From Gallionella sp. (GTDB taxonomy: Bacteria; Pseudomonadota; Gammaproteobacteria; Burkholderiales; Gallionellaceae), in the NCBI GenBank assembly GCA_013044075.1, contig JABEVG010000112.1, positions 1 to 33,566 of the forward strand: a DNA stretch of 33,566 nucleotides, in the 5' to 3' direction. The notes below the pieces were generated by a model, which ran no database searches, was not told where the DNA came from, and worked only from the letters and a program-made list of their open reading frames with translations. Below, piece by piece: positions 8,337-26,598 of this stretch (its first letter is position 1; each line of letters opens with the position of its first letter). A program made the position numbers and the translations under genes.

Positions 8337-8851
8337 TTTTGCTTTTGCCAACCGACTTTAGTTGTCTTGTACAGGTTATATCCCCAAATGATATTTGCGG
8401 ATAAAACAAGCATTCCAAAAAAACCCACGAATGCCATCAAGTGACTCACCAACTTTTCTACATCATCGCTGGTATCCAAGCCGCCTACTAATCCAGCACT
8501 AAGAAAGAACACCAACATTCCTATCAGTCCAAAGTTATGCATCCAGAAATGCACCTTAACCAGCTTCAAGCTGTATATCTGGCGGCGTGAAACGGTAGGA
8601 ACAACATAGTAAAGCGAAGCGAAGATGGCCATCTCAACCCAGCCAAGCAGATTGATGTGCCCATGCGCCAAAGTGATTAATCGCCCGTGCGGGCTATAGT
8701 CAACAAAATGCCGAAATGCCGGCACGCCGCCCATGACCGCGCCCCACGAAAAACCTATGATGCTGTAAATAATGCACGCGTAAACAAACCACAGAATATA
8801 CTTGGTGTATTCACCTGCCTGCGATGGACTATGCTCAATGCTTTGCGTCAT
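8333..8851 (-). CDS. mini-CcoN: stand-alone 4-TM haem-copper-oxidase subunit I fragment
   Basis: A 172-residue protein with four predicted membrane helices (about 20-40, 58-82, 100-120, 135-158). It matches only the region of CcoN around helices IX-XII. The HxH pair (H63 and H65 in LAHGHINLLGWVEM) aligns with AHAHLALLGF of the full CcoN at 23760-25166, and the following YYVVP...IYSLKLVKVHFW pattern aligns as well. In CcoN these two histidines bind haem b3 and haem b. The copper ligands and the cross-linked tyrosine are absent, so catalysis of O2 reduction alone is excluded. It overlaps the upstream cytochrome gene by 17 bases and has AGAGGA before its ATG. A truncated relic is unlikely because its reading frame and translational coupling are intact. 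Confidence 0.8.
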   Translation of the reverse strand: MTQSIEHSPSQAGEYTKYILWFVYACIIYSIIGFSWGAVMGGVPAFRHFVDYSPHGRLITLAHGHINLLGWVEMAIFASLYYVVPTVSRRQIYSLKLVKVHFWMHNFGLIGMLVFFLSAGLVGGLDTSDDVEKLVSHLMAFVGFFGMLVLSANIIWGYNLYKTTKVGWQKQK

Positions 8852-9419
8852 GTTGTTCCTCTGTTGATTTTGTTTTTATCCAATCACGAATATCCTTGTA
8901 CTGGCTTCTCCATCCGTCCGGTGCCCACATGTCAATCATCGAATCGATGAAACTCGACTCACCCTTGGGCGGCTCAAACGACGATGATGATCCTTGGTCA
9001 GATTTCAACTCTGACAAAAATACAGCCATGCTGTGCAAATCTGCGTCAGGAAGGCTTGCAACATATGCCGCATCCTTGGGAGGTGCCCCATGGTCCAAGG
9101 TCCTCGAACCGTAAGTCTGCTCGGGATTTTTAAGGAAGTTATAGAAATAGCTGGTATCGTGCTTCGACCCTAATCCGTCCAAACTCACCCCCATACTCGT
9201 ACCGCTACCGACCGCGCGGTGACAGGAGTAACAATTGCTCTGTTGATATAAGTGATAGCCTTGCAATCCATCAGCGGAAAAATCGAAGTGTGTCAAAACA
9301 GGGAACAGCGGCTTCTCTGAATGCCGCCTAACCGACTCGAGAACAACGAAGTTAACCACCGTAATAATCACCAACAGCGCGACCACCCCAAAGAGTATCT
9401 TTTCTCCTTTTTTCATCAA
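8835..9419 (-). CDS. membrane-anchored mono-haem cytochrome c
   Basis: A 194-residue protein with an uncleaved N-terminal anchor (about 8-28) and one haem-c site C63-Y-S-C66-H67 (NCYSCH), placing the haem domain in the periplasm. Its N-terminus (MMKKGEKILFG) matches that of the cytochrome at 20754-21236 (MKRGEKAVLM), so the two are paralogues. In the usual Met-ligand position (QMPSY in the paralogue) this protein reads GAPPKD, so no axial Met is obvious there. A long hydrophilic tail (about 140-194) follows the haem domain. It overlaps the mini-CcoN start, suggesting that the two form one complex. ATG at 9416 is an alternative start. Confidence 0.85.
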   Translation of the reverse strand: MMKKGEKILFGVVALLVIITVVNFVVLESVRRHSEKPLFPVLTHFDFSADGLQGYHLYQQSNCYSCHRAVGSGTSMGVSLDGLGSKHDTSYFYNFLKNPEQTYGSRTLDHGAPPKDAAYVASLPDADLHSMAVFLSELKSDQGSSSSFEPPKGESSFIDSMIDMWAPDGWRSQYKDIRDWIKTKSTEEQHDAKH

Positions 9420-9570
9420 TTTCCAATCTTCATTCAGCGTGACACTCCAGTTGTTCGACTCAGCTTCGAGAGACTCACAAATAAAAAAACTGATCCATGC
9501 AGACCAGTCTTCGAGAAGACCCCAGCACCAAAATACTAGGCACCGGGATGTTCAAAAAACCAAGCAATAA

Positions 9571-10335
9571 TTATTTAACAATCTTCACGTTCTTCAAAAT
9601 CATCTTATTGTCGATCTCCATGCCGTCGCCTACTGTGCTGTCGGATGCCTGGGACAAGTAAGTCGCTGCATTACGGATATCTTCATCGGTCAGGTTCTTG
9701 GCCACCGCACGCATTTGCCCCATTGGGTCATTTTCACGCGACCCATCGCGCCAATGCGTCAATTGATTGACCAGATATACATACTTCTGCTGAGCAATTT
9801 TTGGGTACACCGGATCTGCACCACGTCCATTAAAGCCATGACAGGACATGCACGCTGGCACCTTGTCAGCCACCCCATAACGAACCAGCAATTGTCCTTT
9901 ATATGACTCACCTATTACCGTGCCATCAGTTTTAAGCGCATTGAGATCAGAAGGTTCAGAATCCCTTGGGAAGCTATTCTCGTAGGCAGCCAAATCGCGC
10001 TTATCCTGAACGCTCAATCCTTTCGCAATGCCATTCATCTGATCCATGGTCAAGTCTTTGCGCTTATCTTCCGCATAATTAGTCAGCTGCTTGACGATGT
10101 ATACATATCCGATATTGGCAAGTCTAGGCGAACCCATCCCGTCATTGCCCATCGCCTTTTCACCATGACATGTTTGACATGCTGGCACCCCCGCATCTGG
10201 CTTGCCATTTTCAAAAATATTCTTTCCATTGGTGACATTCGCTGTAACGGCCTCTCCAGCAAAACTCGCACCCGAAAATGCCAGCATAGCAACAGCCCCG
10301 CAACACACCATAACCAAATTAGATAACTTACGCAT
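9571..10335 (-). CDS. di-haem cytochrome c4-like protein
   Basis: A 254-residue periplasmic electron carrier. A Sec signal peptide (cleavage after SGASFA, about residue 26) precedes two cytochrome-c lobes with haem sites C53-Q-T-C56-H57 and C162-M-S-C165-H166. Each lobe shows the c4 pattern after the haem: a VYIVKQLTNYAEDKRKDL / VYLVNQLTHWRDGSREN helix and then a Met ligand region (MDQMNGIAKGL, MGQMRAVAKNL). c4 cytochromes commonly feed electrons to cbb3 oxidases. A GGGGGAGGG ribosome site precedes the ATG. A 151-base gap separates it from the next gene (9420-9570), where I see nothing clear. Confidence 0.88.
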   Translation of the reverse strand: MRKLSNLVMVCCGAVAMLAFSGASFAGEAVTANVTNGKNIFENGKPDAGVPACQTCHGEKAMGNDGMGSPRLANIGYVYIVKQLTNYAEDKRKDLTMDQMNGIAKGLSVQDKRDLAAYENSFPRDSEPSDLNALKTDGTVIGESYKGQLLVRYGVADKVPACMSCHGFNGRGADPVYPKIAQQKYVYLVNQLTHWRDGSRENDPMGQMRAVAKNLTDEDIRNAATYLSQASDSTVGDGMEIDNKMILKNVKIVK

Positions 10336-13085: not shown

Positions 13086-13628
13086 ATGATGAGCAAAGAC
13101 ATTCTGCATCGGCATCTTTTGAAATTTCTCCTGCTTTCGGCTTTCTCGTTTTTTATAGGGACTGTTCACGGCGCACTTCAGGTCATGCCTCCGATTCGCG
13201 CTTGGCTAGATTCAATCGGCAGCCCTTATGGAGGGCCGGGACACATGATCGATCCTCTGGCTCACGCCCACATGAACCTGGTGGGGGGGGTGGTATTGCT
13301 TGCCATGTGTGTCACTTTTTACCTTCTGCCCATTTTCACCGGAAAGAAAATTTATTCTACAAGACTAGTCGATCACACTTTTTGGTGGGTCAGCACAGGA
13401 GTGTATAGTTTTTACGTGATACAAATGGTTTTTGGTATTTGGGAAGGCTTGCTAATGCACTCAGCCCCCGAACAAATATCTGCTGCGCATCGCTTCTATG
13501 GGCCAGTCATGGCTATTTCCGGGTCAACCATGTTGATAGGGTTCTGCACCTTTCTGGCGAATGTTCTTTTGACTATTACGGCATCGCCATCCAGCGATAA
13601 AAACCTGCTTAACTCGGCGTCAGTTTAA
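13086..13628 (+). CDS. second mini-CcoN: 4-TM haem-copper-oxidase subunit I fragment
   Basis: A 180-residue protein with four membrane helices (about 11-33, 55-82, 98-120, 138-165). It corresponds to helices IX-XII of CcoN. H60 and H62 (LAHAHMNLVGG) match the haem-ligand HxH of the full CcoN (VAHAHLALLGF) and of the mini-CcoN at 8333-8851, and IYSTRLVDHTFWW matches IYSLKLVKVHFW of the latter. An extra histidine (H28 in GTVHGALQV) lies in the first helix. The copper-binding histidines of CcoN are absent. A run of eight G (13283-13290) lies in the codons for the VGGV stretch. The 3' end overlaps the convergent FixH-like gene by 20 bases. No strong ribosome site is visible; ATG at 13089 is the alternative start. 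Confidence 0.78.
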   Translation: MMSKDILHRHLLKFLLLSAFSFFIGTVHGALQVMPPIRAWLDSIGSPYGGPGHMIDPLAHAHMNLVGGVVLLAMCVTFYLLPIFTGKKIYSTRLVDHTFWWVSTGVYSFYVIQMVFGIWEGLLMHSAPEQISAAHRFYGPVMAISGSTMLIGFCTFLANVLLTITASPSSDKNLLNSASV

Positions 13629-13998
13629 GCGGAAAAAACAAGACCTTTTGCTCGTTGCCTTTCTGAAGTCTCACCTGCAATTCCACCGCTTCTCCATCTC
13701 CAATATCGACTGCTCGGCGATACACACCAATAAACCCATCCTGAATCGCCTGCACCCAGGGCATAGATTCGTTGCCACGAAGAGAAATGGTCAAATCAGA
13801 TATCGGTCTACCGCGAGGACCGGTGACGATAACAACGATCTCTGACATTCCGGCGATTGGAGGATTCGGGTGAGTCTCGATGCGCACATCCGCAGAATTC
13901 CAATGTTGGACAGGAATCTGATATGCCGCACCGCCATCGTTGCAGGCAGCAAGTCCAGCAACAAGTAATGCGAAAGATGCCGCCAGTAGTTTTCTCAC
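13609..13998 (-). CDS. FixH/CcoH-like lipoprotein
   Basis: A 129-residue lipoprotein with GTG start at 13998, signal peptide and lipobox GLAAC (Cys19), then a beta-sandwich-like domain (RIETHPNPPIAGMSEIVVIV, LTISLRGNESMPWVQAIQDG, FFPLKLTPS). It is similar in outline to the extracytoplasmic part of FixH/CcoH and to YtkA-like proteins, which help to assemble or stabilise cbb3 oxidases. It is the last gene of the ccoG-containing group, where ccoH is usually found next to ccoG. Unlike canonical FixH it is lipid-anchored rather than anchored by a membrane helix. Similarity is at the level of layout, so the call is tentative. Confidence 0.5.
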   Translation of the reverse strand: MRKLLAASFALLVAGLAACNDGGAAYQIPVQHWNSADVRIETHPNPPIAGMSEIVVIVTGPRGRPISDLTISLRGNESMPWVQAIQDGFIGVYRRAVDIGDGEAVELQVRLQKGNEQKVLFFPLKLTPS

Positions 13999-14020: not shown

Positions 14021-14452
14021 TTACTTTTGCTTTTCGTTTTTATTTTCGGTCTGCCCCATCACGTCAGAATCCAATCTTCCCCCTGCAGAGGATCCGTACA
14101 TGTTCACCATATACCATACGAATGCTCCAGCAAGAGAGATATACACCAACGAACCCAAGAATCCGGGATCTTTCACCCAGTCTGTCCACTTCACTGAAAC
14201 ACCGGGGCGCAACCCCCAGAAAGGGAAACTGAGACCAACACCTACCAGTAGCACAATTACGACCACAGCCCAGAACCAATAAGGAACATTGAGTTGCGAT
14301 TCTGGAATCTTCTCAACCAGCTCCCAGTCTTCCATGCCACGCTTTTCCAAACGTTCTTCGTTTGAAGCGTAGCCGTAATTATCTTGACGATGTTTGCCCC
14401 ATTTTGATTTTTCTTTGGACAACGCCAGTTTATTTTCTTGCTGTTCCATCAT
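14021..14452 (-). CDS. two-TM protein resembling the CcoP N-terminal anchor, no haem site
   Basis: About 143 residues. A polar N-terminal arm (1-55) ends in EDWELVEKIPESQLNVPYWF, and a membrane helix (about 57-76) follows with FPFWGLRPG directly after it. A loop, a second helix (about 98-118) and a polar tail complete it. The arm-helix layout recalls FixP_N, the N-terminal anchor of CcoP (D-G-I-x-E-x-N-x-LP-x-W-W), and FPxWGxRP is shared with the protein at 22139. No CxxCH is present, so it cannot replace the di-haem subunit. ATG at 14452 or 14449 follows GAGGAG. The gene lies directly after ccoG (8-base gap). Confidence 0.6.
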   Translation of the reverse strand: MMEQQENKLALSKEKSKWGKHRQDNYGYASNEERLEKRGMEDWELVEKIPESQLNVPYWFWAVVVIVLLVGVGLSFPFWGLRPGVSVKWTDWVKDPGFLGSLVYISLAGAFVWYMVNMYGSSAGGRLDSDVMGQTENKNEKQK

Positions 14453-14460
14453 AGCTCTCC

Positions 14461-15777
14461 TCATTCGACAAAATGCTGAACATTAAATCGCCCCACCCAG
14501 CCATCATTAGAACGAACCACAACAACAAAAGGGTAGAGTCCACGATGGAGCTTTGGTGACACCGAAAGAATGACCGATGCCCGTCCAACCGATTCCAGAT
14601 TAACCTTAAATCCACTCAGAATAAAATCATTCTGCTTCAACCCTTCAATCGACATACTCAATTCGGTCGGTCGATAACGCTTACTGGAAACTTCAATGCG
14701 GTAATCACGAGCCGACTGATTATGCGCCGTTGCCAAATATCCCACTGCTACGTGATAAGGCTGGTAGGACCATACCCCCCACGCGAACATAACCACACCC
14801 AAAGCCGCGAACGGGACTGTCCACCTAAGTCTCGATAACAACGATATGGAGTTATCGCGTAATTTTCGCACCTTACTCGGTTTACGTTGTCCCAGCTCAA
14901 ACCGCAATAATCCGATGCCGCCCTTTTTGGCCTGCAAATTATTGCAAGCATCAATGCAATCACCACAGTTAATGCAGCTGTCGTAGATTTCTGTTCTGCG
15001 CGGGTCAAGCTCGATAAAACAAGTCGTCACGCAATAATTACATTTTGCGCATTCATTAGTTCGACTGGTATCGTAAACCACATGCAAAGTTTCTTTGGTC
15101 TTAAACGAGTGTTGCCAGACCTTATACACACAAGCGAAACGGCACCAGAAATGCCTAAGCACCGCAATATCCAAGAGGATCATCATCACCCATACCGAAT
15201 AGATCCAGTATAAAGATCCCGCCAATCTGGAGTCCGCCCTAAATGATATAAAAGACCACACCACATCCGGCGGATAAAAATAAAGCAATGGCACTAGCGC
15301 GGCTAACATCGCTGCACCTAAAAAAGCAAGTCCCAGCAGTGACCAATTCAACGCCTTGTTTTTCGCGGCCGACACTTTGGGTGCCTCACCATTCAGACTG
15401 ACCTCAGCGCGTTTCCCGAGTAATTTATGGGTCATGTGGTTCGCCCATTCGGCCAAAGTATTTTGGGGGCACGCCCATCCACAGAACACCGTTCCAGCGA
15501 CCGAGTATAGCCCAACCAGCCCGCAGGCTAGCATAATCCACAAGCCCGAGATCAAAAAGAAATCGGCGAACCATATTTGCCATCCCAGCACCACCAGTGC
15601 GCCATTTTCCGGGTCAATCCGGAACAACCCTGATACTGGAACAAGAACGATCAACACTAAAATTGCGATTTGGAGCGCGCGTCGTTTTAATCGAAAATTT
15701 GTCGCACCTATCCTCGGTTGCGCACGGATCACTTTGATGGGAATACTCGAAAGTGTTTTATTAATATCGTGAGACAT
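14461..15777 (-). CDS. ccoG: cbb3 oxidase assembly protein CcoG (FixG/RdxA family)
   Basis: A 438-residue polyferredoxin-type inner membrane protein that reduces or handles copper during cbb3 oxidase assembly. Visible are five hydrophobic helices, the FCGWACPQNTLAEW motif (about 100-112), a WCRFACVYKVWQ motif, and two ferredoxin clusters: CAKCNYCVTTCFIELDPRR and CINCGDCIDACNN. The C-terminal Ig-like IL-domain (YRIEVSSKRYRPTELSMSIEG...) completes the family architecture. Length is normal for CcoG. The stop is followed within 10 bases by the next gene. A canonical CcoG in this cluster is good evidence that the nearby CcoN/CcoO form a cbb3-type enzyme. Confidence 0.93.
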   Translation of the reverse strand: MSHDINKTLSSIPIKVIRAQPRIGATNFRLKRRALQIAILVLIVLVPVSGLFRIDPENGALVVLGWQIWFADFFLISGLWIMLACGLVGLYSVAGTVFCGWACPQNTLAEWANHMTHKLLGKRAEVSLNGEAPKVSAAKNKALNWSLLGLAFLGAAMLAALVPLLYFYPPDVVWSFISFRADSRLAGSLYWIYSVWVMMILLDIAVLRHFWCRFACVYKVWQHSFKTKETLHVVYDTSRTNECAKCNYCVTTCFIELDPRRTEIYDSCINCGDCIDACNNLQAKKGGIGLLRFELGQRKPSKVRKLRDNSISLLSRLRWTVPFAALGVVMFAWGVWSYQPYHVAVGYLATAHNQSARDYRIEVSSKRYRPTELSMSIEGLKQNDFILSGFKVNLESVGRASVILSVSPKLHRGLYPFVVVVRSNDGWVGRFNVQHFVE

Positions 15778-15812: not shown

Positions 15813-18458
15813 CTACGAGGTTACATTCACTTCGCTGTCCAGAGGAGAGAGGGCTAACAGGCGCGAATGGTAACTCTCGGCCGCTTGCGTGTTGCCGGAA
15901 GCCTGCTCCAAATGCCAGAGGGCACGTAATGCACCAACATGATCAGGGTAAACTTTCAAAATTTTCTGCAATGCCTCGCGCTGGCTAAAACCGTGCTGAC
16001 TGGCCTGTGAAAGGGATTGCAGCATGTTATCAGCTAGTGCATTTGCAATCCAGCGATCTCGGGGGTTCGCTTGGTATGCCAGCCAGATAAGTCGGCCCGA
16101 CTTTTCACCATCTCCTTGTATCGATGCAACCCATGCTCGCACGGCAAGCTCCGTTGCCACGTACGCGCGTCCGAACTGGCTCTTGTCAGCCGCATCAACT
16201 CCCAATATGTCGGCAGCCGTATTCGTATCAGGATGTCGATGCAAAAGCCACATCATCATGTTTTCCAAATTTACGTTTCCATCGTAGCGGGCCCGTGGCA
16301 GACTGTATTCGATGTAGGGCATCCACTCATCTTGGATTGGCCCGTCACTCTCAGTGATGGGCCCCCAATACCGGCCGAGCCACGTCCACACACCTTCATT
16401 TCCGGTTGCCAAAGTCCGTGTTTGCATAGCCATCCGATGTAAGTTTTCTATCGTTCCTTGGGCACCGGGCGGGCTATTTTTTGGACCGACCAAAGCCAGA
16501 TGCATTCCGTCCATGAACATCTGTGCGTTGGGAAACACCATGCGAAAACTGCGCAGAACGACCTTGAGTGATTGAATATCAAACTGGTTGAGTGCCAACC
16601 ACTGCACGAATATCCCGTCCACATTCAAATGATTTCTCGCTCGTTGAAATTGTTGCACTGACAATAATGAACCCATCCCGGCTAAATCCGGATGAAACAA
16701 GTCGCCAATAATCACATCGTAATGTAGTGGCGTGCTGCTCAGAAAATGTCGGGCATCGTCTCGTACAATCTGCGCTTGATCCATCACATTATTATTGACT
16801 GGAGAAAACCACTGCGTGGCCGCAAAAATTGAGCCCTGTGATAATTCCACTGCAGTGCGCTGCAATTCAGGAAATGGCTGCGATCCCGCCACGGAGATTC
16901 CGGTTCCCAGCCCGAGAAATAGCACACTGTGTGGCTCCGAATGCAGCAATAGTGCGAGTCGTGCCTGATCTTTCTGTATCTCGACTGCACTGGGTTCGGT
17001 TGATGCATCCATACGCTGTAAATCGCTCAGCAGTATGCGTTGCCCATTCTGTTGTCGCACAACATGTGTCAGCGAAATTGCATCTTCATACAGATATAAG
17101 TCGCTACTATTCGCCTCGATTTTCGGCAACAGCTCATGCACCGGTGGCAAACCACGAACTGCCCAAGCAATCGGAAGCATCGCCAACAATATCAGCCAAG
17201 CCCAACGTGAGTGTGCCCATAACAACCCCAAGCCGACGATTATTAAGCCTGCCAGTGACAACATCGCAGGACTTCCCACCAATGGCATGAACAACAGACT
17301 AGCAAGCACCGCACCCACGCCACCACCCAGGCAATTTGCACCGTACAACCATACACCACTCGAGTCCGTGCTGCCAAAGCGATCAGCCAATAATGGCAAC
17401 CAAGCTCCCAAAGCGAGGGTAACCGGTAGCGTGACCATCACCAACACAATTGCCTGTGACCAAAGTGCGCCAAAGAACGATTGGAACTGACTGTTCTCCA
17501 CCCAAGTGGAAATGCTTGGCAGCAGCCACACGCTCAGCAACACCCCCCCTCCCGTCAACGACGCCAACACCATTGGAAGCCATTTATTGTGCTTGCGCGG
17601 CAGTAGCATACTACCCAACGCGATGCCCAGCAGGAACACTGCCAGTATCACGCCAAGCACGTATTCAGTCCGCAGCATTACCATGCCGTACATACGTATC
17701 CAGCCTATTTCCAGCATGATACTGCCCGCACCTATGCCCGCATATATCATCAAAGTACGCAACACCGGGCGTGACGGTCTATTATTTTCAACCGACCTAA
17801 TCGTGGCGTCACTGGGCTGTGTGAATTTTGACAGCACTAATGCTGCGACACCGACCACAAATCCCAACAGTGCAACTACTCTTACCGAATTTATCCAACC
17901 CAATACCGGCAAGCTCCACAGCGGAAGCAATGCTCCCACGACGCCACCCAGCGTATTAAATCCATAGAGCTTCCCCAATGATAGAGGTGTGCGATCAACG
18001 ACTTTTAGTACCAATGCGAACCCCACACCCATCGCCAATGCAGGTATGAACAGCAGGCATAGCACTTCCGCACCTTGTAATAGATACCATTGTGTTAAAG
18101 AAAACTGAGCTGCGACACCTTCCATCCAACCGCTGATTGCCCGTAACCAATTTGGCAGCATGATTGCGTACATCGCAATTGCAATTTCGAGTACTGCAAA
18201 CAGGGTTAGGGGTGCGTTACATCTGTTGATCCAGCGCGCCCCAGCAAGACTACCCAGCCCCAACCCGAACATGAATGCCGCAACAGTGAGTACTACGCCG
18301 AATATACTGACCCCAAATTGCATCGACAACATACGCGCCCACAAAACCTCGTAAGCAAGACTAGTCACCCCCGACAAGCAATATAGAAAAGCGACCAACC
18401 AGCACCACGATATACCGCTTGAATTCTTGTAATTTAAGCTAAATGTAGGGAGTGGCAT
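15813..18458 (-). CDS. spermidine-synthase-like protein fused to a multi-TM N-terminal domain
   Basis: An 881-residue protein. Residues 1-440 hold about 13 membrane helices of the MFS-like type found in 'fused MFS/spermidine synthase' proteins. Then comes a soluble SpeE-like domain with the SAM/dcSAM-binding loop VLFLGLGTGISVAG and the GDLFHP/YDVIIGD strand-loop (about 500-600). The C-terminus (about 700-881) is helical, with TPR-like spacing. Whether it makes a polyamine is unknown; many such fusions are not proven aminopropyltransferases. The gene is downstream of a 118-base gap with no evident promoter and upstream of ccoG (35-base gap), so it is probably in the same transcript as the oxidase assembly genes. 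Confidence 0.82.
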   Translation of the reverse strand: MPLPTFSLNYKNSSGISWCWLVAFLYCLSGVTSLAYEVLWARMLSMQFGVSIFGVVLTVAAFMFGLGLGSLAGARWINRCNAPLTLFAVLEIAIAMYAIMLPNWLRAISGWMEGVAAQFSLTQWYLLQGAEVLCLLFIPALAMGVGFALVLKVVDRTPLSLGKLYGFNTLGGVVGALLPLWSLPVLGWINSVRVVALLGFVVGVAALVLSKFTQPSDATIRSVENNRPSRPVLRTLMIYAGIGAGSIMLEIGWIRMYGMVMLRTEYVLGVILAVFLLGIALGSMLLPRKHNKWLPMVLASLTGGGVLLSVWLLPSISTWVENSQFQSFFGALWSQAIVLVMVTLPVTLALGAWLPLLADRFGSTDSSGVWLYGANCLGGGVGAVLASLLFMPLVGSPAMLSLAGLIIVGLGLLWAHSRWAWLILLAMLPIAWAVRGLPPVHELLPKIEANSSDLYLYEDAISLTHVVRQQNGQRILLSDLQRMDASTEPSAVEIQKDQARLALLLHSEPHSVLFLGLGTGISVAGSQPFPELQRTAVELSQGSIFAATQWFSPVNNNVMDQAQIVRDDARHFLSSTPLHYDVIIGDLFHPDLAGMGSLLSVQQFQRARNHLNVDGIFVQWLALNQFDIQSLKVVLRSFRMVFPNAQMFMDGMHLALVGPKNSPPGAQGTIENLHRMAMQTRTLATGNEGVWTWLGRYWGPITESDGPIQDEWMPYIEYSLPRARYDGNVNLENMMMWLLHRHPDTNTAADILGVDAADKSQFGRAYVATELAVRAWVASIQGDGEKSGRLIWLAYQANPRDRWIANALADNMLQSLSQASQHGFSQREALQKILKVYPDHVGALRALWHLEQASGNTQAAESYHSRLLALSPLDSEVNVTS

Positions 18459-19249: not shown

Positions 19250-20311
19250 TTATTTTTCCAGACTGGACGCGCAACGAAATCCATAGAAATCGGAGGCTGA
19301 ATTTGGCCAAGAATAATCTCTGTGATAAGTCGCCGTTGAGAAGGGATCGCCTTTCCACGACCCGCCCCGCAGCACTTTGTACTGCTTATTCACCGGAACT
19401 AGATCGACCACCTTAAGAGCTCGATCATTCGCATCAGTTATTTGCGGCACTTTCCCCTGAAACACATCTGCAGGGGCATCGCTACCTTTATAGGGAAGAA
19501 AGTCGTCTGCCACCCATTCATCCACGTTACCCGCCATGTCAAAGACCCCATACGGGCTAGCTCCATTGGTATAAGTAGTAACATCACTTGCCGAACCAAC
19601 GTTATAGTAAGTATTCAAGCGTGCCGGATCCATGCTATTGCCCCACGGCCAACGTCTACCATCTGTACCCCGTGCGGCCTTTTCCCATTCAGCCTCACTA
19701 GGAAGACGTTTCCCCGCCCATTTTGCATAGGCTGCGGCATCGTACCAATTCACCAGCGTAACCGGATGAAGCAATGTCCCTTGCTGTACTTTGCCGTTCT
19801 TCCAGTCCGATGGAGCGCGATGCCCTGTTGCAGCGATGAACCGGGCATATTGCGCATTCGTCACTAGATATTTATCAATTCGGTATGCGTCCAAATTTCT
19901 GGTATGTTGTGGACGTGATGCTGCGTCAGCATTTTTCAAATCCGTACCCATCAGAAATTTTCCTGCCGGAATCAATACTGTGCTATCTAACTCTTGCCAT
20001 TGCTCCTTTGTCAGCAATGACTCTGCTTCAGCAAGCGTATATCCAGCAGCCGAACTTTTCCGATTTTCGTTTCGCTCGTGTATCGCAATATCTTCTCCAG
20101 CTGCACGAATTCTGGTGGATTCTTCTTTCAGATTGTACGTCGCCAATGCGCGCATCTCTCCCATGCGAATGGAACCCAATTTAACAACATGCATACTCCC
20201 GCCTATCATCACCAAGGCGATACACGTGATAACAGTTGCGCCCAAGAATCGCTTCCTACGAAGACGTTCCGCTGGAGTTTGTGCAATGCGCTTGGACACA
20301 TCTGACATCAT
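19250..20311 (-). CDS. membrane-anchored SUMF1/FGE-domain protein
   Basis: A 353-residue protein with an N-terminal cytoplasmic arm and one membrane helix (about 24-44), then a linker and a C-terminal formylglycine-generating-enzyme-like (SUMF1, C-type-lectin fold) domain from about 110. Hallmarks are IPAGKFLMGTD, LVTNAQYARF, NWYDAAAYAKWAGKRLPSEA, EWEKAARGTDGRRWPWG, DMAGNVDEWVADDF and the closing VLRGGSWKGDP ... FYGFRCA. Canonical aerobic FGE binds copper with two cysteines in the closing GGS region; here that stretch (SWKGDPFSTATYHRDYS) has none, so sulfatase-activating activity is unlikely. The orientation puts the domain outside the cytoplasm. ATGA overlap with the upstream gene shows operon membership. 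The role may be assembly or scaffolding. Confidence 0.8.
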   Translation of the reverse strand: MMSDVSKRIAQTPAERLRRKRFLGATVITCIALVMIGGSMHVVKLGSIRMGEMRALATYNLKEESTRIRAAGEDIAIHERNENRKSSAAGYTLAEAESLLTKEQWQELDSTVLIPAGKFLMGTDLKNADAASRPQHTRNLDAYRIDKYLVTNAQYARFIAATGHRAPSDWKNGKVQQGTLLHPVTLVNWYDAAAYAKWAGKRLPSEAEWEKAARGTDGRRWPWGNSMDPARLNTYYNVGSASDVTTYTNGASPYGVFDMAGNVDEWVADDFLPYKGSDAPADVFQGKVPQITDANDRALKVVDLVPVNKQYKVLRGGSWKGDPFSTATYHRDYSWPNSASDFYGFRCASSLEK

Positions 20312-20757
20312 GCTTTCCCTGTTTTGGCTGCTGATTTCCGGTCTTCAATATCAACATCACCTGACCGACCATATACACTCTTAATCATGACCTCGCCGAG
20401 TATTCCGCCAATCGCTGATGCTTCCATTGCCAAAATGACGTAGAACCCCCACCAACCCAATGGATTCAAATTGCTGCCATGCGGCGTACCTGTATAGTAA
20501 AAAATCTCGGCATAGCTCAAAGTGCGCACAATCAACGGCGGAAAATAAGCCAGCCATCTCGCACCTTTACCAAATATCCATGCCACCACCAGACCGACCA
20601 CAAATGGGACAAAAAAGACATCTAACACCCAAGCGAAGCTAAACGTCGCCAATCCAGAAAAAAGTTCTAACCTGACTCCCAGCAGCCTGTCACCTAGATG
20701 GTTTAATGCCATGCCAATCAGCAACGCGACCAACCCGGACATATTTCGCTGACTCAT
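20308..20757 (-). CDS. four-TM membrane protein of unknown function
   Basis: A 149-residue protein with about four hydrophobic helices (about 7-26, 45-64, 72-88, 103-125) and a polar C-terminus rich in Asp and Lys. It carries a YFPPLIVRTLSYAEIFYYTG loop and GSNLNPLGWWGFY. No family recognised. ATG overlaps the stop of the upstream cytochrome gene (ATGA), and its own stop overlaps the start of the SUMF1 gene in the same way. This tight coupling suggests stoichiometric production with the anchored cytochrome c and the SUMF1 protein. Confidence 0.75.
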   Translation of the reverse strand: MSQRNMSGLVALLIGMALNHLGDRLLGVRLELFSGLATFSFAWVLDVFFVPFVVGLVVAWIFGKGARWLAYFPPLIVRTLSYAEIFYYTGTPHGSNLNPLGWWGFYVILAMEASAIGGILGEVMIKSVYGRSGDVDIEDRKSAAKTGKA

Positions 20758-21236
20758 TTTTTGTACTCCATGCCCGTTAACTTTTCGTATTCAGCCTTTT
20801 TTGTGTCAGCCAAATACCAATCTTTCACTTTTAGGCCTGCCATGTATTGCACCAACACCGCTCTATCAGCGTCAGACATTCTCGCATAGGAAGGCATCTG
20901 ATATTGTTTCTTCAAGCGGGATGGAAGAATGGCTTGAGGATTAGGGGAGGACAAATAATCGCGCAACCACTGTTCCGATCGCAACGAGCCGATGCCGTCC
21001 AACATAGGCGCGGGTACAGATTGTGACATATCTTGCAGCGTCCATAAGCTATGGCAGCTTTTACATCCATTTTCTCGGTAAACGTCCATCGCCCGCCTGG
21101 CCACATCAGCAGTTGCTTCGCTATAGAACGGAATGTCTCTGTCATGCTTTTCTACAACACGTGTAGAGGTCCACACCACACTCGCCAGGAGTACGATGCC
21201 AATCAACATCAGAACAGCTTTTTCTCCACGTTTCAT
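20754..21236 (-). CDS. membrane-anchored mono-haem cytochrome c
   Basis: A 160-residue protein from ATG at 21236, 4 bases after the CcoS-like stop. An N-terminal anchor helix (about 7-24) precedes a periplasmic haem domain with C58-K-S-C61-H62 (NGCKSCHSLWTLQD) and a Met ligand in QYQMPSYARM. The GIGSLRSEQWLRDYLSSPNP and DADRAVLVQYMAGL helices are those of class I c-type cytochromes. It is paralogous to the cytochrome at 8835-9419. Since no CcoP is encoded here, this anchored cytochrome could supply the extra haem in its place (inference). Confidence 0.87.
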   Translation of the reverse strand: MKRGEKAVLMLIGIVLLASVVWTSTRVVEKHDRDIPFYSEATADVARRAMDVYRENGCKSCHSLWTLQDMSQSVPAPMLDGIGSLRSEQWLRDYLSSPNPQAILPSRLKKQYQMPSYARMSDADRAVLVQYMAGLKVKDWYLADTKKAEYEKLTGMEYKK

Positions 21237-21240
21237 GCGG

Positions 21241-21510
21241 TTATTTTTGCTTTTCTGCTTTATCAGCCAGAAATCGATTACGACTTTCAATTTGCGAATT
21301 GATAACTTCACGACTTTTTGCATACTCGGCAGGCGTCATTTTTTCGCGATCTTTTTCATCAAAGATCACGTATTTAATATCTTCATCAAACTGTTCGTTC
21401 TTCGCACCCCAGCGTATCCAGTAAAGTACTGCAACTATGATCATCGCCCCGATAATCAACCACAGGTAGATCGTCCAGCCATCTGGAAGTGTTTCAAAGA
21501 AATTAGCCAT
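21241..21510 (-). CDS. CcoS-like cbb3 maturation protein
   Basis: An 89-residue protein with ATG at 21510 after AGGAAAA. One membrane helix (about 13-30) is followed by YWIRWGAKNEQFDEDIKY and VIFDEKDREKM. This matches the CcoS pattern of a helix, then W-x-(n)-GQFDDL and a short acidic segment. CcoS is needed for haem and copper incorporation in cbb3 oxidases. The present protein has about 35 more C-terminal charged residues (PAEYAKSREVINSQIESRNR) than typical CcoS. The open frame to 21609 is not used as it overlaps the upstream gene and lacks a ribosome site. It could alternatively be a CcoQ-like subunit. Confidence 0.55.
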   Translation of the reverse strand: MANFFETLPDGWTIYLWLIIGAMIIVAVLYWIRWGAKNEQFDEDIKYVIFDEKDREKMTPAEYAKSREVINSQIESRNRFLADKAEKQK

Positions 21511-21532: not shown

Positions 21533-21745
21533 TCAGAAAAGGTAACCGCCCAGCATCTGCAACGCACCAAAAACAACTGCAACCACCACACCAAGAATAA
21601 TTGCCGCAAACATCAAACGCTCACCCATTCGGATTTTTTTTGAGCGATTCGAACTGAACAATAGCGCAATGACAATTCCGGAAAAAACCACAATCCCTAT
21701 CAACAAAAACACGAAAACACCCTCACTGAACTGTTGACTACGCAT
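21533..21745 (-). CDS. 70-residue two-TM membrane protein, first gene of its operon
   Basis: A small protein, MRSQQFSEGVFVFLLIGIVV then a second hydrophobic segment AAIILGVVVAVVFGALQML, with a basic loop SSNRSKKIRMGERLM between them. GAAGGG immediately precedes the ATG. It is the first gene after the terminator at 21861-21897 and so opens the group that runs to the FixH-like gene. Family not recognised. Confidence 0.65.
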   Translation of the reverse strand: MRSQQFSEGVFVFLLIGIVVFSGIVIALLFSSNRSKKIRMGERLMFAAIILGVVVAVVFGALQMLGGYLF

Positions 21746-21960: not shown

Positions 21961-22068
21961 TTAGTCTTTTTCGTTGCGATCAACAAACAGCGCATACATT
22001 ATAGGTGCCAAAAATGCAATTGCAATAACCAACGACAACGCAACCGGACCATTATCTAATTCAATCAT
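21961..22068 (-). CDS. 35-residue single-TM peptide, CcoQ-like position
   Basis: A short gene whose product begins MIELDNGPVALSLVIAIAFL and ends YALFVDRNEKD: one membrane helix (about 8-27) and a charged tail. GGGAGA stands 8 bases before the ATG, and a terminator follows 64 bases after the stop. It is the last gene of the ccoN operon, after the CcoP-anchor-like gene. Its size and place fit a small cbb3 subunit of the CcoQ/CcoM type; sequence similarity cannot be judged reliably at this length. Confidence 0.7.
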   Translation of the reverse strand: MIELDNGPVALSLVIAIAFLAPIMYALFVDRNEKD

Positions 22069-22138
22069 TCTAATTCTCCCTTAGGTATCAGCATTTGCAA
22101 GCCGGCGTATCAACAATCACCGGCTCGCACCGTGCAAA

Positions 22139-22756
22139 TCAATGTTTATGTCTAGGCTGCCAAGTGGAAGGTGGCAATCTCTTGATCAGGATAGTTACAC
22201 CCAAGAAGAAATAGCTCAGATAGAAAATATCAATCAGATACCCTTTGTCCCACCATGGCTGCTTTCTCTCTGGCGTGCCATCGGCCTTCTTATTACCCTC
22301 GAAGTTAGCCATCACCACACGATCACCCACCACGGTGTATTCCCCCAAATCAACACCTTTGGACATCAAAGCCTCAATCTGGGGTTTGATGATACGCAAA
22401 TCATCCATGCTCAGCGGGTGACGCTCTAACCCGGCATCATTTTCCCCACCCAAATTCATCTGAACGATTTTTTGCATCGCGACTTTATCGTCTTGAATCG
22501 CCATTACTTCGGGGGTACTCATTGCCTTTACATAACCCTCGTAAAGTGCCGCCGTTGGGCGTTGCCCCCACAGCGGGAAAGTCACCGAAAAAGCCGTAAC
22601 CACCGTCAAAACGACTAACAACACCACAGGCATAGGCAGACGATTATTGTCTTCCGTTATGCCACCCAGATCTTCCTTTTCCCACAACGCTTTATCTGCC
22701 TCATTCGTTGCAGTATCGCAAAGACTGCGCAACGGCTTATCAAAATTCCAAGACAT
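22139..22756 (-). CDS. CcoP/FixP_N-like membrane subunit lacking haem domains
   Basis: A 205-residue protein in the position where ccoP follows ccoO. Residues 28-41 (EDLGGITEDNNRLP) and the following helix (about 42-60) match the FixP_N pattern (D-G-I-x-E-x-N-x-LP before the helix), and FPLWGQRP comes next. In place of the two cytochrome-c domains of CcoP is a region of about 105 residues with no CxxCH, then a second helix near 172-190. The same FPxWGxRP motif and two-helix layout recur in the protein at 14021. It is 14 bases downstream of ccoO. It may anchor the complex while the anchored cytochromes supply haem c (inference). Confidence 0.65.
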   Translation of the reverse strand: MSWNFDKPLRSLCDTATNEADKALWEKEDLGGITEDNNRLPMPVVLLVVLTVVTAFSVTFPLWGQRPTAALYEGYVKAMSTPEVMAIQDDKVAMQKIVQMNLGGENDAGLERHPLSMDDLRIIKPQIEALMSKGVDLGEYTVVGDRVVMANFEGNKKADGTPERKQPWWDKGYLIDIFYLSYFFLGVTILIKRLPPSTWQPRHKH

Positions 22757-22770
22757 TTTCCATCCCCCTG

Positions 22771-23727
22771 TTATTTTAGGCTCATCATAAAATCGATCAA
22801 ACTGCGGATTTCCGAATCGCTGGCGTAGCTAGGAACCTCTGGAGGAGTCACTCGCTTGCCTTCGGTGTACTCGCTGTACTCAGCTCTCCATTTCGCGAAG
22901 TCTATCTTTTGGCCTGCAGCATCTTTTTCACCCCACAGATAATCAAAACGCGGCATGATTGAGTGCGGCTGCACTAGGCGTGGATTGAAGAAGTGCATCA
23001 TCATCCATTCTTTGGATGAATTACGGGAACCCACATGCAACAGGTCGGGAGCCTTGCGATCCGAACCAAAGGCCGTTGGTGATTCACCGTTGAAATCCCC
23101 CAGCATCGGCGGAGCACCAAACACTTGCCAATCTTGTGTCTGCTCGGGCAGCAAGGTATGACACCACCAGCAACCCTCGCGTACAAACATGGTTTTACCC
23201 TTGCCCGCGTGCGACACATCTTCATCCTTGGCGACACGCATCACATCTTCAGGAGTCCAACCCTTGGTTGCGGTAAGGTTATCGATATAACTGACTTCCT
23301 TTCCTTGATACAACCCCTTGGCCAAAACAAACACCGCCCCGGCATCTTTGCGTGCGTCAGTTACATGCCCCTGCTGCACGCTCAACTCTTCTATGCCAGC
23401 ACCCAGAATCCGCGGGTGCAGAATCCCCGCCGGGAATGCTGTTCCCGGCTGATATACATACACGGACATACCGCCACTTAAAGGCTGACCAGACTTGGGG
23501 TCAACCTTAAGCGATACGTTAAGAGGCTTATTCTTACCTAACAGAAACGGGTCGTCCAAATTAAAACCCGTTTCATGCCCGATAGACAACTGCTTCGCAA
23601 GTGCAATGTCAGTGGAAGACACTGACGCGATATTGATGCTCGGCATCAGCAGGGTAATACACATCGATCCACCCAGCGCAAGGCCGAACAGTCTCGATCC
23701 GATTTTATATTCTCTAAATCCAGCCAT
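22771..23727 (-). CDS. ccoO: cbb3-type oxidase subunit II CcoO, enlarged form
   Basis: The mono-haem membrane-anchored cytochrome c subunit of cbb3 oxidases. An N-terminal helix (about 12-31) is followed by a haem site C186-W-W-C189-H190 in FVREGCWWCHTLL, then GSDRKAPDLLHVGSRNSSKEW and the Met-ligand region PHSIMPRF, all typical CcoO. Canonical CcoO is about 200 residues with CxxCH near residue 70; this product is 318 residues with about 110 extra residues (about 60-175) between the anchor and the haem site. That segment contains VFVLAKGLYQGKEVSYIDNL. The gene lies 32 bases after ccoN. Confidence 0.9.
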   Translation of the reverse strand: MAGFREYKIGSRLFGLALGGSMCITLLMPSINIASVSSTDIALAKQLSIGHETGFNLDDPFLLGKNKPLNVSLKVDPKSGQPLSGGMSVYVYQPGTAFPAGILHPRILGAGIEELSVQQGHVTDARKDAGAVFVLAKGLYQGKEVSYIDNLTATKGWTPEDVMRVAKDEDVSHAGKGKTMFVREGCWWCHTLLPEQTQDWQVFGAPPMLGDFNGESPTAFGSDRKAPDLLHVGSRNSSKEWMMMHFFNPRLVQPHSIMPRFDYLWGEKDAAGQKIDFAKWRAEYSEYTEGKRVTPPEVPSYASDSEIRSLIDFMMSLK

Positions 23728-23759
23728 CTTTGATCTCCCTAAGTTTTCTCGGCCTAATA

Positions 23760-25166
23760 TTAGCGTTCGTATGCCAACTCATGAGGCATGCGACCCGCTG
23801 GCACCACACTTCCTTTGCGCGCAGTCATCCACATGTTGTACAACCACAACACGTTACCCGTGAACACCATGGTTCCACCCAGCCAACGCGCGATCATGTA
23901 AGGATGCTCTGCAATTACCACGTCGATATAAGGCACCTCATATATCTTGCCCGCGCCCTGAATCAAACCGGCAATCGTCATGGAAATCCAGTAAGTAGTA
24001 AAACCAATCAACAACAACCAAAAGTGCATATTGGCCAAAGTCAAGGAATACAACTTACGCTTCAGGATGGTTTGCAAACCCAGATAAACCGCAGCCGCTT
24101 CCAGGAAAGTCGAGAAACCCAACAAAGCAAGGTGTGCATGCGCAACAATCCAGCCGGTACCGTGAATGTACCAGTTAATGGCTCGAGTCTGCTGGAAACC
24201 ACCCTGCATATTCAGCGGGATCGCCATCAAACAACCGGTGATGGTAAAGCGGATTTCGATATTCTCCACGAACATGTGCCACTTACCCTGCATGGTCAGC
24301 ATGATATTGGACACAAACGCAATCGCAGGCACCAGAATCAAAACACCTTCCACGGAAGCGAATGACTTCAACCACTCAGGCAGAGGAGCAGACATCAGGT
24401 GATGTGCCGCGGGCGTGGAGTAGAACACCACCACCGACCAGAAGTGCAAATGCCCGATACGATGCGAGTACAAGGGATTACCCGTCACCTTCGGAATGGT
24501 GTAGTAAGCAATCGCGGCCGCTACCGGAGTAATCCACAAACCCAACACATTATGCGCAAACCACCATGTCAGATAGGCTTCAGTCAAACCAGTCAAATGG
24601 AAAAATTCAGGCAAATTACCCACCAAGAACACGATAATCACCATAAAAGTGGCGGCAGCAAAAAACCAATTAGTCGTGTAAATCCCTTGGGTACGGCGAT
24701 TGAGAATCGTCATCCAAACATTGACACCCAGCGGGATAAACACAAAGGCAGCCAAATACAAATCTATCGGCCAAGGGAAGTCAGAATATTCACGCCCCGA
24801 AGTGATACCGGCCCACAAAATCGTCAAGCCCAGAGTCAACCCGAGATTCCAGAACAAGCAATTCCACAAACCCAGCTTCTCAGACCATAGCTTCGTATTG
24901 CCGAGCGCAGGCGTGATATACATCATAGCCATCGCAAAGGCCATCGATATCCAGCCAAAAATCACCGCCAAGACATGCACTTGACGCATATGCCCGAAAG
25001 CAAAGTATATGTTACCCGTCACGAAATCAGGGAATGCGAGCTTCGCCGCATTGAAAGATCCCAACCCCGTACCAATAACGAACCAGATGATAGCTGAAAA
25101 CCCAAAGAAAACCGCCGCCGAGCCTTCAGGTATATCTTCATTCTTGGCCAATAAATATTTTAACAT
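23760..25166 (-). CDS. ccoN: cbb3-type (C-family) haem-copper oxidase catalytic subunit CcoN
   Basis: A 468-residue protein with about 12 membrane helices. Conserved ligands are visible: H64 (low-spin haem b, MRQVHVLAVIF), H205 (copper, WWFAHNVLG), H255/H256 (copper, PAAHHLMSA), and H343 and H345 (haems, VAHAHLALLG). Tyr249, six residues before the HH pair, occupies the site of the cross-linked Tyr of cbb3 oxidases (Y251 with H257/H258 in Pseudomonas). That favours an O2 reductase over a NO reductase. Odd: where canonical CcoN has FEGPMM before helix X this has NMQGGF, so the conserved Glu is Gln321. Eight C between the ribosome site (GAGG) and the ATG form a homopolymer leader. Confidence 0.9.
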   Translation of the reverse strand: MLKYLLAKNEDIPEGSAAVFFGFSAIIWFVIGTGLGSFNAAKLAFPDFVTGNIYFAFGHMRQVHVLAVIFGWISMAFAMAMMYITPALGNTKLWSEKLGLWNCLFWNLGLTLGLTILWAGITSGREYSDFPWPIDLYLAAFVFIPLGVNVWMTILNRRTQGIYTTNWFFAAATFMVIIVFLVGNLPEFFHLTGLTEAYLTWWFAHNVLGLWITPVAAAIAYYTIPKVTGNPLYSHRIGHLHFWSVVVFYSTPAAHHLMSAPLPEWLKSFASVEGVLILVPAIAFVSNIMLTMQGKWHMFVENIEIRFTITGCLMAIPLNMQGGFQQTRAINWYIHGTGWIVAHAHLALLGFSTFLEAAAVYLGLQTILKRKLYSLTLANMHFWLLLIGFTTYWISMTIAGLIQGAGKIYEVPYIDVVIAEHPYMIARWLGGTMVFTGNVLWLYNMWMTARKGSVVPAGRMPHELAYER

Positions 25167-25170
25167 TACA

Positions 25171-25178
25171 CCCCCCCC
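25171..25178. repeat. homopolymer of 8 C in the ccoN ribosome-site spacer
   Basis: Eight C on the plus strand, G8 on the coding strand, lie between GAG and TGTAATG of ccoN. A length change would alter the ribosome site or its spacing. A second run of eight G lies in the mini-CcoN gene at 13283-13290. Confidence 0.5.
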
Positions 25179-25196
25179 TCAATTCAAAAAAACACC

Positions 25197-25307
25197 TTAG
25201 TGATGATCAACCCCATTTTTTTTCTCATACGGCATAAGTATATACCACGACAGCAACATACTCGAAAATGCCAACAAAACTCCAAACGATCCCGCGATTA
25301 AGGCCAT
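25197..25307 (-). CDS. 36-residue single-TM peptide just upstream of ccoN
   Basis: A short gene with product MALIAGSFGVLLAFSSMLLS, then WYILMPYEKKNGVDHH: one membrane helix (about 3-25) and a charged tail with two final histidines. GAGGAG stands 8 bases before the ATG. It lies 30 bases before ccoN on the same strand. This is the size and shape of CcoQ/CcoM-type oxidase subunits, although canonical ccoQ follows ccoO. Identity is inferred only from position and shape. Confidence 0.72.
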   Translation of the reverse strand: MALIAGSFGVLLAFSSMLLSWYILMPYEKKNGVDHH

Positions 25308-25355
25308 GGCCACTTCTCCTCAAATAGTGTACGTCAACAAGCAATCCGATTCAGA

Positions 25356-25637
25356 TCAACCCGCCATTTGTTCTAATTTATCATGGCGACTCATTCCAAC
25401 AACTAGAATCACACAAAATGCAAAACCGAATACGATCATCGCCCAATCAATAAACCCAGTAAAGGTCACTGGATCGTAGGCCGTCATGCCAGCACCACCC
25501 CAGTTCGGAAAATTTCCGCGCCCCATCAAACACATTAAAGTTGCGCCGAACACACTTCCATTACCCATCCCCGTCAACATCCCGCTTATCAAGATAAGCC
25601 AAAAGGATCGAGATATCATCGACTTCTTTGTACTCAT
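25356..25637 (-). CDS. 93-residue two-TM membrane protein, first gene of the ccoN operon
   Basis: From ATG at 25637 (GGGGG-type ribosome site; the open frame to 25697 lacks one). It has two hydrophobic helices (about 10-35, SFWLILISGMLTGMGNGSVFGATLM, seen in pieces, and about 64-82, WAMIVFGFAFCVILVVGM), a loop with FPNWGGAGMTAYDPVTFTG and a short basic/acidic tail. Not recognised. The 48-base spacing to the 36-residue peptide gene and the same strand indicate one operon with ccoN and ccoO. Confidence 0.65.
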   Translation of the reverse strand: MSTKKSMISRSFWLILISGMLTGMGNGSVFGATLMCLMGRGNFPNWGGAGMTAYDPVTFTGFIDWAMIVFGFAFCVILVVGMSRHDKLEQMAG

Positions 25638-26013: not shown

Positions 26014-26598
26014 ATGCGCAAAATTTTCCTGCTGTTTCTAACTCTATTACTTAGCGCATGCGGTGACCATGAAGCAACATCGCCCTACCATGCTATAGAT
26101 ATTTCATGGCAGCACGCGCATGCCGATTTTCGACTTACCGATTCGAATCGCGCACCCCGCATGCTTTCTGATTTCAAAGGGAAAGTAGTTGTTTTGTTCT
26201 TTGGATATACTCACTGCCCAGAAGTATGCCCCACTACACTGGCCGATTTAGCGCAAACCATGCGTCTACTTGGCAATGATGCCAACAGAGTACAAGTCTT
26301 ATTTGTCACACTTGATCCGGATCGAGACAAGCCAGAATTACTCACAAATTTCGTGTCATCCTTTAATCCTGCTTTCCTTGCTTTATACGGCGACCCCCAA
26401 TCCACCGCCCAAGCTGCCAGTGCTTTTGGCGTGAACTATACAAAGCGGCCTGACCAACACGGTGGTTACATACTGGACCATACCGACGGTATTTTTTTGT
26501 TAGGCCTTAGAGGTACGCCATTGCTACTTGCACCTTATGGTCAGCCTGCCGAACAAATGGCGCATGACATCAGATTGTTGCTTTCCATTGGTCGGTAG
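26014..26598 (+). CDS. SCO1/SenC copper chaperone lipoprotein
   Basis: A 194-residue periplasm-facing lipoprotein with signal peptide and lipobox LLSAC (Cys16). The thioredoxin-like domain has the copper-binding C68-P-E-V-C72 (GYTHCPEVCPTT) and the distal His in YILDHTDG, which together form the SCO metal site. LFVTLDPDRDKPELL is the family signature. It delivers copper or reduces thiols for haem-copper oxidase assembly. It is divergent from the ccoN operon, so a role in that enzyme's copper site is likely. It is not followed by any operon partner. Confidence 0.92.
   Translation: MRKIFLLFLTLLLSACGDHEATSPYHAIDISWQHAHADFRLTDSNRAPRMLSDFKGKVVVLFFGYTHCPEVCPTTLADLAQTMRLLGNDANRVQVLFVTLDPDRDKPELLTNFVSSFNPAFLALYGDPQSTAQAASAFGVNYTKRPDQHGGYILDHTDGIFLLGLRGTPLLLAPYGQPAEQMAHDIRLLLSIGR

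Follow-up and report, generated by a model that had tools for sequence, protein, structure and literature searches.

The window analysed here is a contig of 33,566 nucleotides (C79) from a Gallionella sp. genome (2.2 Mb, 93% complete, 124 contigs). Its minus strand carries an oxidase block spanning positions 25637 down to 13609, with a half-size COX1 gene on the plus strand convergent at its end. The block contains genes for relatives of the cbb3-type (C-family) oxidase subunits CcoN (N) and CcoO (O), followed, in the ccoP position, by a gene for a protein (P) that lacks the haem-binding motif CxxCH, and then by genes for the small membrane protein g215, a CcoS-like protein (S), a membrane-anchored mono-haem cytochrome c (cytM) and, further downstream, a CcoG-like protein (G) and a second haem-less protein (hl2). 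We consider it reasonably probable that the block represents a lineage of C-family cytochrome c:O2 oxidases that is set apart by the lack of CcoP, with P in its place, and is carried mostly by lithotrophs that use high-potential donors (carrier lifestyle was taken from names and papers).

Conservation and distribution of the block

A scan across the contigs of 84,980 species gave 89 relatives, from which 80 loci were kept (the named loci), many of them cut by contig ends. Matches to O, P and cytM were found in all 80, to g215 and S in 79, and to N and the microprotein small2 in 78. P lies no more than 200 bases downstream of ccoO in 79/80 named loci and ccoO follows ccoN in 77/80; cytM is encoded on the same strand downstream of P in 77/80, with one CxxCH in each of the 77. 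The stretch up to cytM, read from ccoN in 74 loci and from ccoO in three, contained no open reading frame (ORF) with two or more CxxCH motifs in any of these 77 loci. Conservation of the gene order had been proposed as a check in the first-pass annotation of this DNA, and in 20 neighbour loci, picked mainly for long contigs among 36 other P-bearing genomes, the order g253-N-O-P-g215-S-cytM-tm-FGE-g185-spd-G-hl2 was preserved in 20/20, as were both microproteins, small1 and small2.

P was present in 37 of the 199 genomes searched (source genome included). Its carriers are labelled Gallionella, Sideroxydans, Ferrovum (including F. myxofaciens P3G), Candidatus Nitrotoga, Chromatiaceae, Ectothiorhodospiraceae and Mariprofundaceae, together with many proteobacterial metagenome-assembled genomes (MAGs); the closest carriers with a name, at P identities of 78-82%, are MAGs of Gallionella and Sideroxydans. 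Of the 398 genomes in a phylum draw, 44 matched P at E 0.001, comprising 39 of family f78, three of f98, one of f111 and the source genome, a few of these matches being hl2-like or fragmentary only. Family f78, which is taken as Mariprofundaceae, had P at E 1e-20 in 36 of 74 genomes. No P was found in two one-contig genomes of its genus g160, which may correspond to Mariprofundus strains CP-5 and CP-8 and would then fit the report that these strains are without a cbb3 oxidase (PMC5513912).

CcoN and CcoO

The first-pass annotation had regarded CcoN and CcoO as clear. Both are clearly related to the known subunits (Table 1) but not typical, as the NCBI equivalog cut-offs were not reached for ccoN (229 vs 583 bits) or ccoO (65 vs 201 bits). 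CcoN matched P. stutzeri CcoN (3mk7) at 9.8e-63, was only 27-31% identical to 19 CcoP-linked CcoN (20 canonical regions were fetched and ccoN was recovered from 19), and in a FastTree phylogeny the 22 P-type CcoN were split from these 19 by a branch of approximately 2.0 substitutions per site. Within the P-type set CcoN is conserved, with 81% identity between the window and a Mariprofundaceae locus. Seven catalytic-site residues (H64, H205, H255, H256, H343, H345 and Tyr249) were kept in 74-75 of 75 aligned CcoN rows, and the tyrosine at the cross-link position, aligned with P. stutzeri Tyr251, was kept in 75/75; the conserved ligands and tyrosine indicate an O2 reductase. The COX1 fold, the histidine ligands of haem and CuB, a tyrosine at the helix VII position and a mono-haem CcoO partner, by which the C family is recognised, were all found. 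CcoO had a single CxxCH in 78/80 named loci, the other two matches beginning at a contig end, and a long, poorly conserved region precedes its haem domain.

Substitutions relative to the canonical sequences were found in 74-75 of the 75 CcoN rows at Tyr to His235, Ser to Gly238, Val/Ile to His239, Glu/Asp to Gln321 and Asp to Gly338, the first four corresponding by alignment to P. stutzeri Tyr237 to His, Ser240 to Gly, Ile241 to His and Glu323 to Gln. At the positions of Tyr237 and Ser240, which belong to the K-channel of P. stutzeri CcoN, His and Gly were present in 75/75 P-type rows and Tyr and Ser in 19/19 canonical rows; Glu323 lies near haem b3 and has a functional role. The changed residues may affect the proton path of the enzyme.

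A haem-less protein in the ccoP position

CxxCH was found in P in 0/80 named loci. Identity to the window protein was 53-82% in 50 other loci, and the invariant residues include W25, N37, P41, the PLWGQRP stretch at 61-67 and H113; a chance ORF was ruled out by this conservation across loci. The first-pass annotation had described the gene at 22139-22756 as keeping only a FixP_N-like anchor without CxxCH. The motif is indeed absent, but the protein is more than an anchor: an AlphaFold2 model (mean pLDDT 75) has membrane helices at residues 42-62 and 172-192 with a helical domain between them, and block-mean pLDDT is 78-93 over residues 61-150. One P homologue (L036 1501-2115, genome G155) has one TGA inside the match.

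Kinship with FixP_N, another point proposed for checking, was supported by profile-profile comparison and not by the hidden Markov model (HMM) search considered below. When 81 P rows were compared with 36 CcoP rows (some of which repeat one gene from overlapping loci), hhalign gave a probability of 64.6% for an alignment of 66 columns that begins in the anchor and extends into the linker, and 40.5% with the CcoP N-terminus alone. The profile score was 38.8, compared with 21.4 for the reversed profile and a mean of 16.7 and maximum of 26.4 for 40 block shuffles. The comparison gives moderate, not decisive, support to descent of P from the anchor plus linker of CcoP. The segment GITEDNNRLP of P is paired with NLEEYNNPLP of CcoP, so that Glu35 of P, present in 50/51 P rows, aligns with the second Glu of the CcoP motif, which we take to be P. 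stutzeri CcoP Glu49 at the proton entrance. In another species the membrane helices of CcoP are reportedly enough for assembly.

ccoP, cytochromes and other oxidases

A normal ccoP elsewhere in the genome, which the first-pass annotation had set against its own proposal, was not found in the source genome, where the best TIGR00782 match reached 24 bits (cut-off 180). At E 1e-20 ccoP was found in 144 of the 199 genomes; of the 37 P genomes 14 had a match and 23 did not, the latter including eight of genus g9, presumably Nitrotoga, all with a listed completeness of 100%. Among the 120 genomes of the family, both genes were present in 14, with 21 P only, 72 ccoP only and 13 neither, an anti-association with an odds ratio of 0.12 (P 2.7e-6 by Fisher's test, which ignores kinship). 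The proposal of a distinct subunit arrangement of the C-family oxidase is upheld by its repeated conservation and by the 23 P genomes without a ccoP match. One full-length COX1 gene and two half-size ones were found in the source genome, and no bd oxidase was found there.

The mono-haem cytochromes at 20754 (cytM) and 8835, which had been suggested to supply the missing haem c, both exist. The start of cytM is probably at 21236 rather than 21323, since an ORF beginning at the latter position would overlap the gene for the CcoS-like protein. As a haem donor cytM fits, given its place after P, and 8835 fits less well, being matched in at least 41 of the 80 loci, a lower bound because many loci are cut short. 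From its gene position and motif, cytM is the leading candidate to provide the missing haem c, and a candidate for electron entry.

As first noted, a divergent SCO gene adjoins the block and no ccoI is visible in the window. One copper ATPase over the cut-off was found in the source genome (C111:3792-5600), and by eye its N-terminus does not look like that of CcoI. PF12156, used as a test for ccoI, had no match in the source genome, nor in 13 of 14 control genomes, so that this negative carries no weight.

Gene content of the block

The features of the block and its flanks are listed in Table 1. The microproteins small1 and small2 flank N-O-P on either side, and both are below 60 aa, shorter than the minimum of the ORF listing. 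An FGE-sulfatase-domain protein and a spermidine-synthase-like membrane protein are both encoded inside the oxidase operon.

Table 1 Features of the oxidase block and its flanks, in the order read along the minus strand, with the divergent SCO gene last
Feature	Position	Strand	Evidence and conservation
g253, small conserved membrane protein that opens the block; start presumably the ATG preceding the conserved part	25356..25637	-	no Pfam family over cut-off; 20/20 neighbours, 74/80 named loci
small1, 36-aa one-helix microprotein	25197..25307	-	ORF in 20/20 neighbours; 74/80 named loci
CcoN-like catalytic subunit	23760..25166	-	Pfam COX1 260 bits
CcoO-like mono-haem subunit	22771..23727	-	FixO 64 bits, 1.7e-17; one CxxCH
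P, haem-less CcoP-like protein, 205 aa, two membrane helices	22139..22756	-	FixP_N 12.8 bits; no CxxCH
small2, 35-aa one-helix microprotein, CcoQ-sized	21961..22068	-	20/20 neighbours; 78/80 named loci
g215, 70-aa two-helix membrane protein (helices by hydropathy)	21533..21745	-	20/20 neighbours; 79/80 named loci
CcoS-like protein	21241..21510 (presumed start)	-	FixS 17 bits, E 0.005, cut-off 23.1 not reached; 79/80 loci
cytM, membrane-anchored mono-haem cytochrome c	20754..21236	-	Cytochrom_C 4.9e-8
Conserved membrane protein, 149 aa	20308..20757	-	no family; 71/80 named loci
FGE-sulfatase-domain protein, N-terminal hydrophobic stretch by eye	19250..20311	-	PF03781 9e-56; 74/80 loci
Conserved small membrane protein, 153 aa	18577..19038	-	no family; 66/80 named loci
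Large membrane protein with spermidine-synthase-like domain	15813..18458	-	PF01564 24.5 bits, cut-off 22.9; 63/80 loci
CcoG-like polyferredoxin	14461..15777	-	TIGR02745 118.6 bits, cut-off 316.7 not reached; 59/80 loci
hl2, second haem-less two-helix protein	14021..14464	-	hhalign kinship with P; 57/80 loci
Small anchored protein in the ccoH position (CcoH name positional only)	13609..13998	-	no family; 15/20 neighbours, 55/80 loci
Half-size COX1-like protein	13086..13628	+	COX1 37.7 bits, model positions 308-415; 17/20 neighbours
SCO1/SenC copper chaperone, divergent	26014..26598	+	PF02630 140 bits, 4.8e-41; matched in only 11/80 loci

The second haem-less protein after ccoG, also noted at first pass, was confirmed: hl2 has no CxxCH, two hydrophobic helices and an FPFWGLRP motif, and its ORF spans 14021-14464 rather than 14021-14452. 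CxxCH was found in 0/57 hl2 loci, a count that leaves out five cross-matches to P (L130, L131, L133, L140 and L161). Comparison of P with hl2 by hhalign gave 89% over P residues 28-68, with a profile score of 41.6 (shuffle maximum 35.6), and hl2 is a paralogue of P on this basis. Short helix matches need care, because hl2 also matched the unrelated membrane protein tm149 at 30%, the other control pairs giving 4% or less. The P profile also matches short hl2-like ORFs in other genomes, with E down to approximately 1e-6.

Two half-size COX1-like proteins, at 8333-8851 (minus strand) and 13086-13628 (plus strand), align to the C-terminal helices of COX1 only, and both retain an H-x-H pair like the haem-ligating one of CcoN (alignments of 42 and 51 rows). 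The former belongs to a module at 8333-10335 (minus strand) with an anchored mono-haem cytochrome and a dihaem c4 (Cyc1-like) protein, all three being matched in 39 of the 80 named loci, a large number of which are truncated.

Proposed function and alternative explanations

Electrons from Fe(II) or nitrite would be taken up by an iron oxidase in the outer membrane or by a nitrite oxidoreductase and passed to a periplasmic cytochrome, for example a dihaem Cyc1-like protein, which would deliver them to cytM or directly to CcoO. From there they would move to haem b and on to the b3-CuB site. The motifs observed in CcoN and CcoO suggest that the former reduces O2 and that the latter carries one haem c. 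P would be a relative of CcoP in which the anchor helix and the first part of the periplasmic linker survive, with no haem domain; it also has a second helix and a periplasmic domain free of haem. It probably retains the roles of CcoP in assembly and at the cytoplasmic proton entrance, which it would help to line. Maturation of the complex may be the task of the CcoG-like, CcoS-like and other small genes. We further propose, tentatively and with the balance close to even, that this is a third C-family architecture, specialised for lithotrophs living on high-potential donors, in which a haem-stripped CcoP is the proton-entrance and assembly subunit, cytM is the point of electron entry and the proton path of CcoN has been remodelled, gaining two histidines and exchanging Glu for Gln close to haem b3. 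If true, proton pumping and donor specificity could differ from those of every studied cbb3 oxidase.

Several observations weigh against a CcoP-free lineage with P in the place of CcoP. P scored 12.8 bits alone and 15.9 bits in the genome search against the FixP_N HMM (PF14715), under the Pfam cut-off of 24.9, and so fails the curated test, and the hhalign probabilities are only 40-65% over a short segment containing a membrane helix. The structure search proposed at first pass gave no match between the P model and the PDB (best E 1.5); a degenerate cytochrome c fold was also considered, with the PDB search deciding neither way. A direct relationship of hl2 to CcoP is unsupported, as hhalign gave 1-3% and no direct similarity, and the model of hl2 is poor (pLDDT 67). 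Nor is cytM always part of the block: its homologue in L130 and L131 lies upstream and on the opposite strand, and in L161 no cytM was found downstream of P before the contig end approximately 1.4 kb beyond P. Some genomes had ccoP candidates beyond those scored (e.g. G048, 11/28), so that absence of ccoP is not proven genome by genome. PV-1 is annotated with ccoNOP (PMC3179512), and this ccoP may be canonical. Finally, P and cytM are putative subunits of the complex.

The block may instead be an ordinary second cbb3 cluster of the proximal/distal kind, a naming that reportedly goes back to Ducluzeau et al. 2008, with a subunit set known to specialists and P an unannotated known component; this is a real possibility, on the doubtful side. 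Proximal and distal types have both been reported in Gallionellaceae (PMC10734462) and in Zetaproteobacteria (PMC7029218), and a 20-gene syntenic block common to ES-1 and PV-1 and absent from ES-2 is already in print (PMC3770913). Consistent with this, genome G118 (presumably ES-1) has both P and ccoP, and G056 (presumably ES-2) has ccoP and no P match. However, a third subunit that is a haem-less FixP_N relative is not described in the available portions of the proximal/distal literature examined. It seems unlikely that P and hl2 serve assembly or stability without being structural subunits, which would leave CcoNO, alone or with cytM, as the working enzyme. Several maturation-like genes (CcoG-like, CcoS-like and FGE-domain) do lie in the block and hl2 adjoins ccoG, distant from N-O, but P directly follows ccoO in 79/80 loci and its anchor is like that of a structural subunit.

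The strong divergence of CcoN from its CcoP-linked relatives and its changed proton-path residues could point away from O2 reduction, to nitric oxide reduction or a different haem-copper activity. This is very improbable given the invariant tyrosine at the Tyr251 position and a NorB match of 31 bits, weak beside 216 bits for CcoN. The P-type CcoN is also the sole full-length haem-copper oxidase found in the source genome, and the cytochrome c oxidase of Candidatus Nitrotoga fabula, whose genome carries the operon (L114), is reported as cbb3-type (PMC6050957). Least probable of all is that a canonical ccoP is merely missing from the assembly. The incompleteness of the source genome and its division into many contigs would allow for such a loss, an explanation largely refuted and here rejected because the eight P-bearing g9 relatives listed as 100% complete are also without a ccoP match.

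A separate CcoP-free lineage would bear on several questions. The route of electrons from Fe(II) or nitrite to O2 is poorly known, and the analysis of the block proposes which subunits are encoded by genes that for the most part carry the label hypothetical. A natural oxidase without the haems of CcoP would reveal what those haems are for, and the fixed proton-path changes in CcoN make C-family proton pumping testable by comparison.

Comparison with known systems

The arrangement is not wholly new: in 'Ferrovum' JA12 only subunits I and II of the cbb3 oxidase were found, and co-localised c-type cytochromes were proposed to replace subunit III (PMC4725956). P as a haem-less CcoP relative and the proton-path changes of CcoN were not found in the available portions of the open-access literature, a scope outside which Ducluzeau 2008 lies. 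Literature searches on cbb3 oxidases without CcoP brought up a paper on the Rhodobacter sphaeroides cbb3 enzyme and an unrelated one. As far as could be seen, the missing subunit is partly in print and the identity of its stand-in is new. Ferrovum-labelled loci carry the operon of the window type, and the available text of the JA12 report makes no mention of a haem-less CcoP relative or of a wider distribution. The proximal and distal clusters of ES-1 differ in subunits and in their response to Fe(II)-citrate and thiosulfate, and the ES-1 Cyc1 homologue Slit_2657 adjoins a cbb3 cluster (PMC8788666), as a c4 gene does in L044. The 20-gene block of ES-1 and PV-1, reported with 14 Leptospirillum homologues and a function given as unknown (PMC3770913), is probably of the window type, a match made at the level of the block and not gene by gene. 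In Candidatus Tenderia electrophaga, complex IV-2 is among the most highly expressed genes and canonical ccoNOPQ expression is low (PMC5371394); complex IV-2 is likewise separate from the canonical operon, and is likened to the block by description only.

Compared with canonical CcoNOQP (P. stutzeri 3mk7/5djq and R. capsulatus 6xkw), the block has the same CcoN ligands, the tyrosine at the helix VII position, a mono-haem CcoO, and CcoG-like and CcoS-like accessory genes. It differs from the canonical enzyme in having no dihaem CcoP and a haem-less P instead, in a CcoN that is only approximately 30% identical, and in four proton-path changes.

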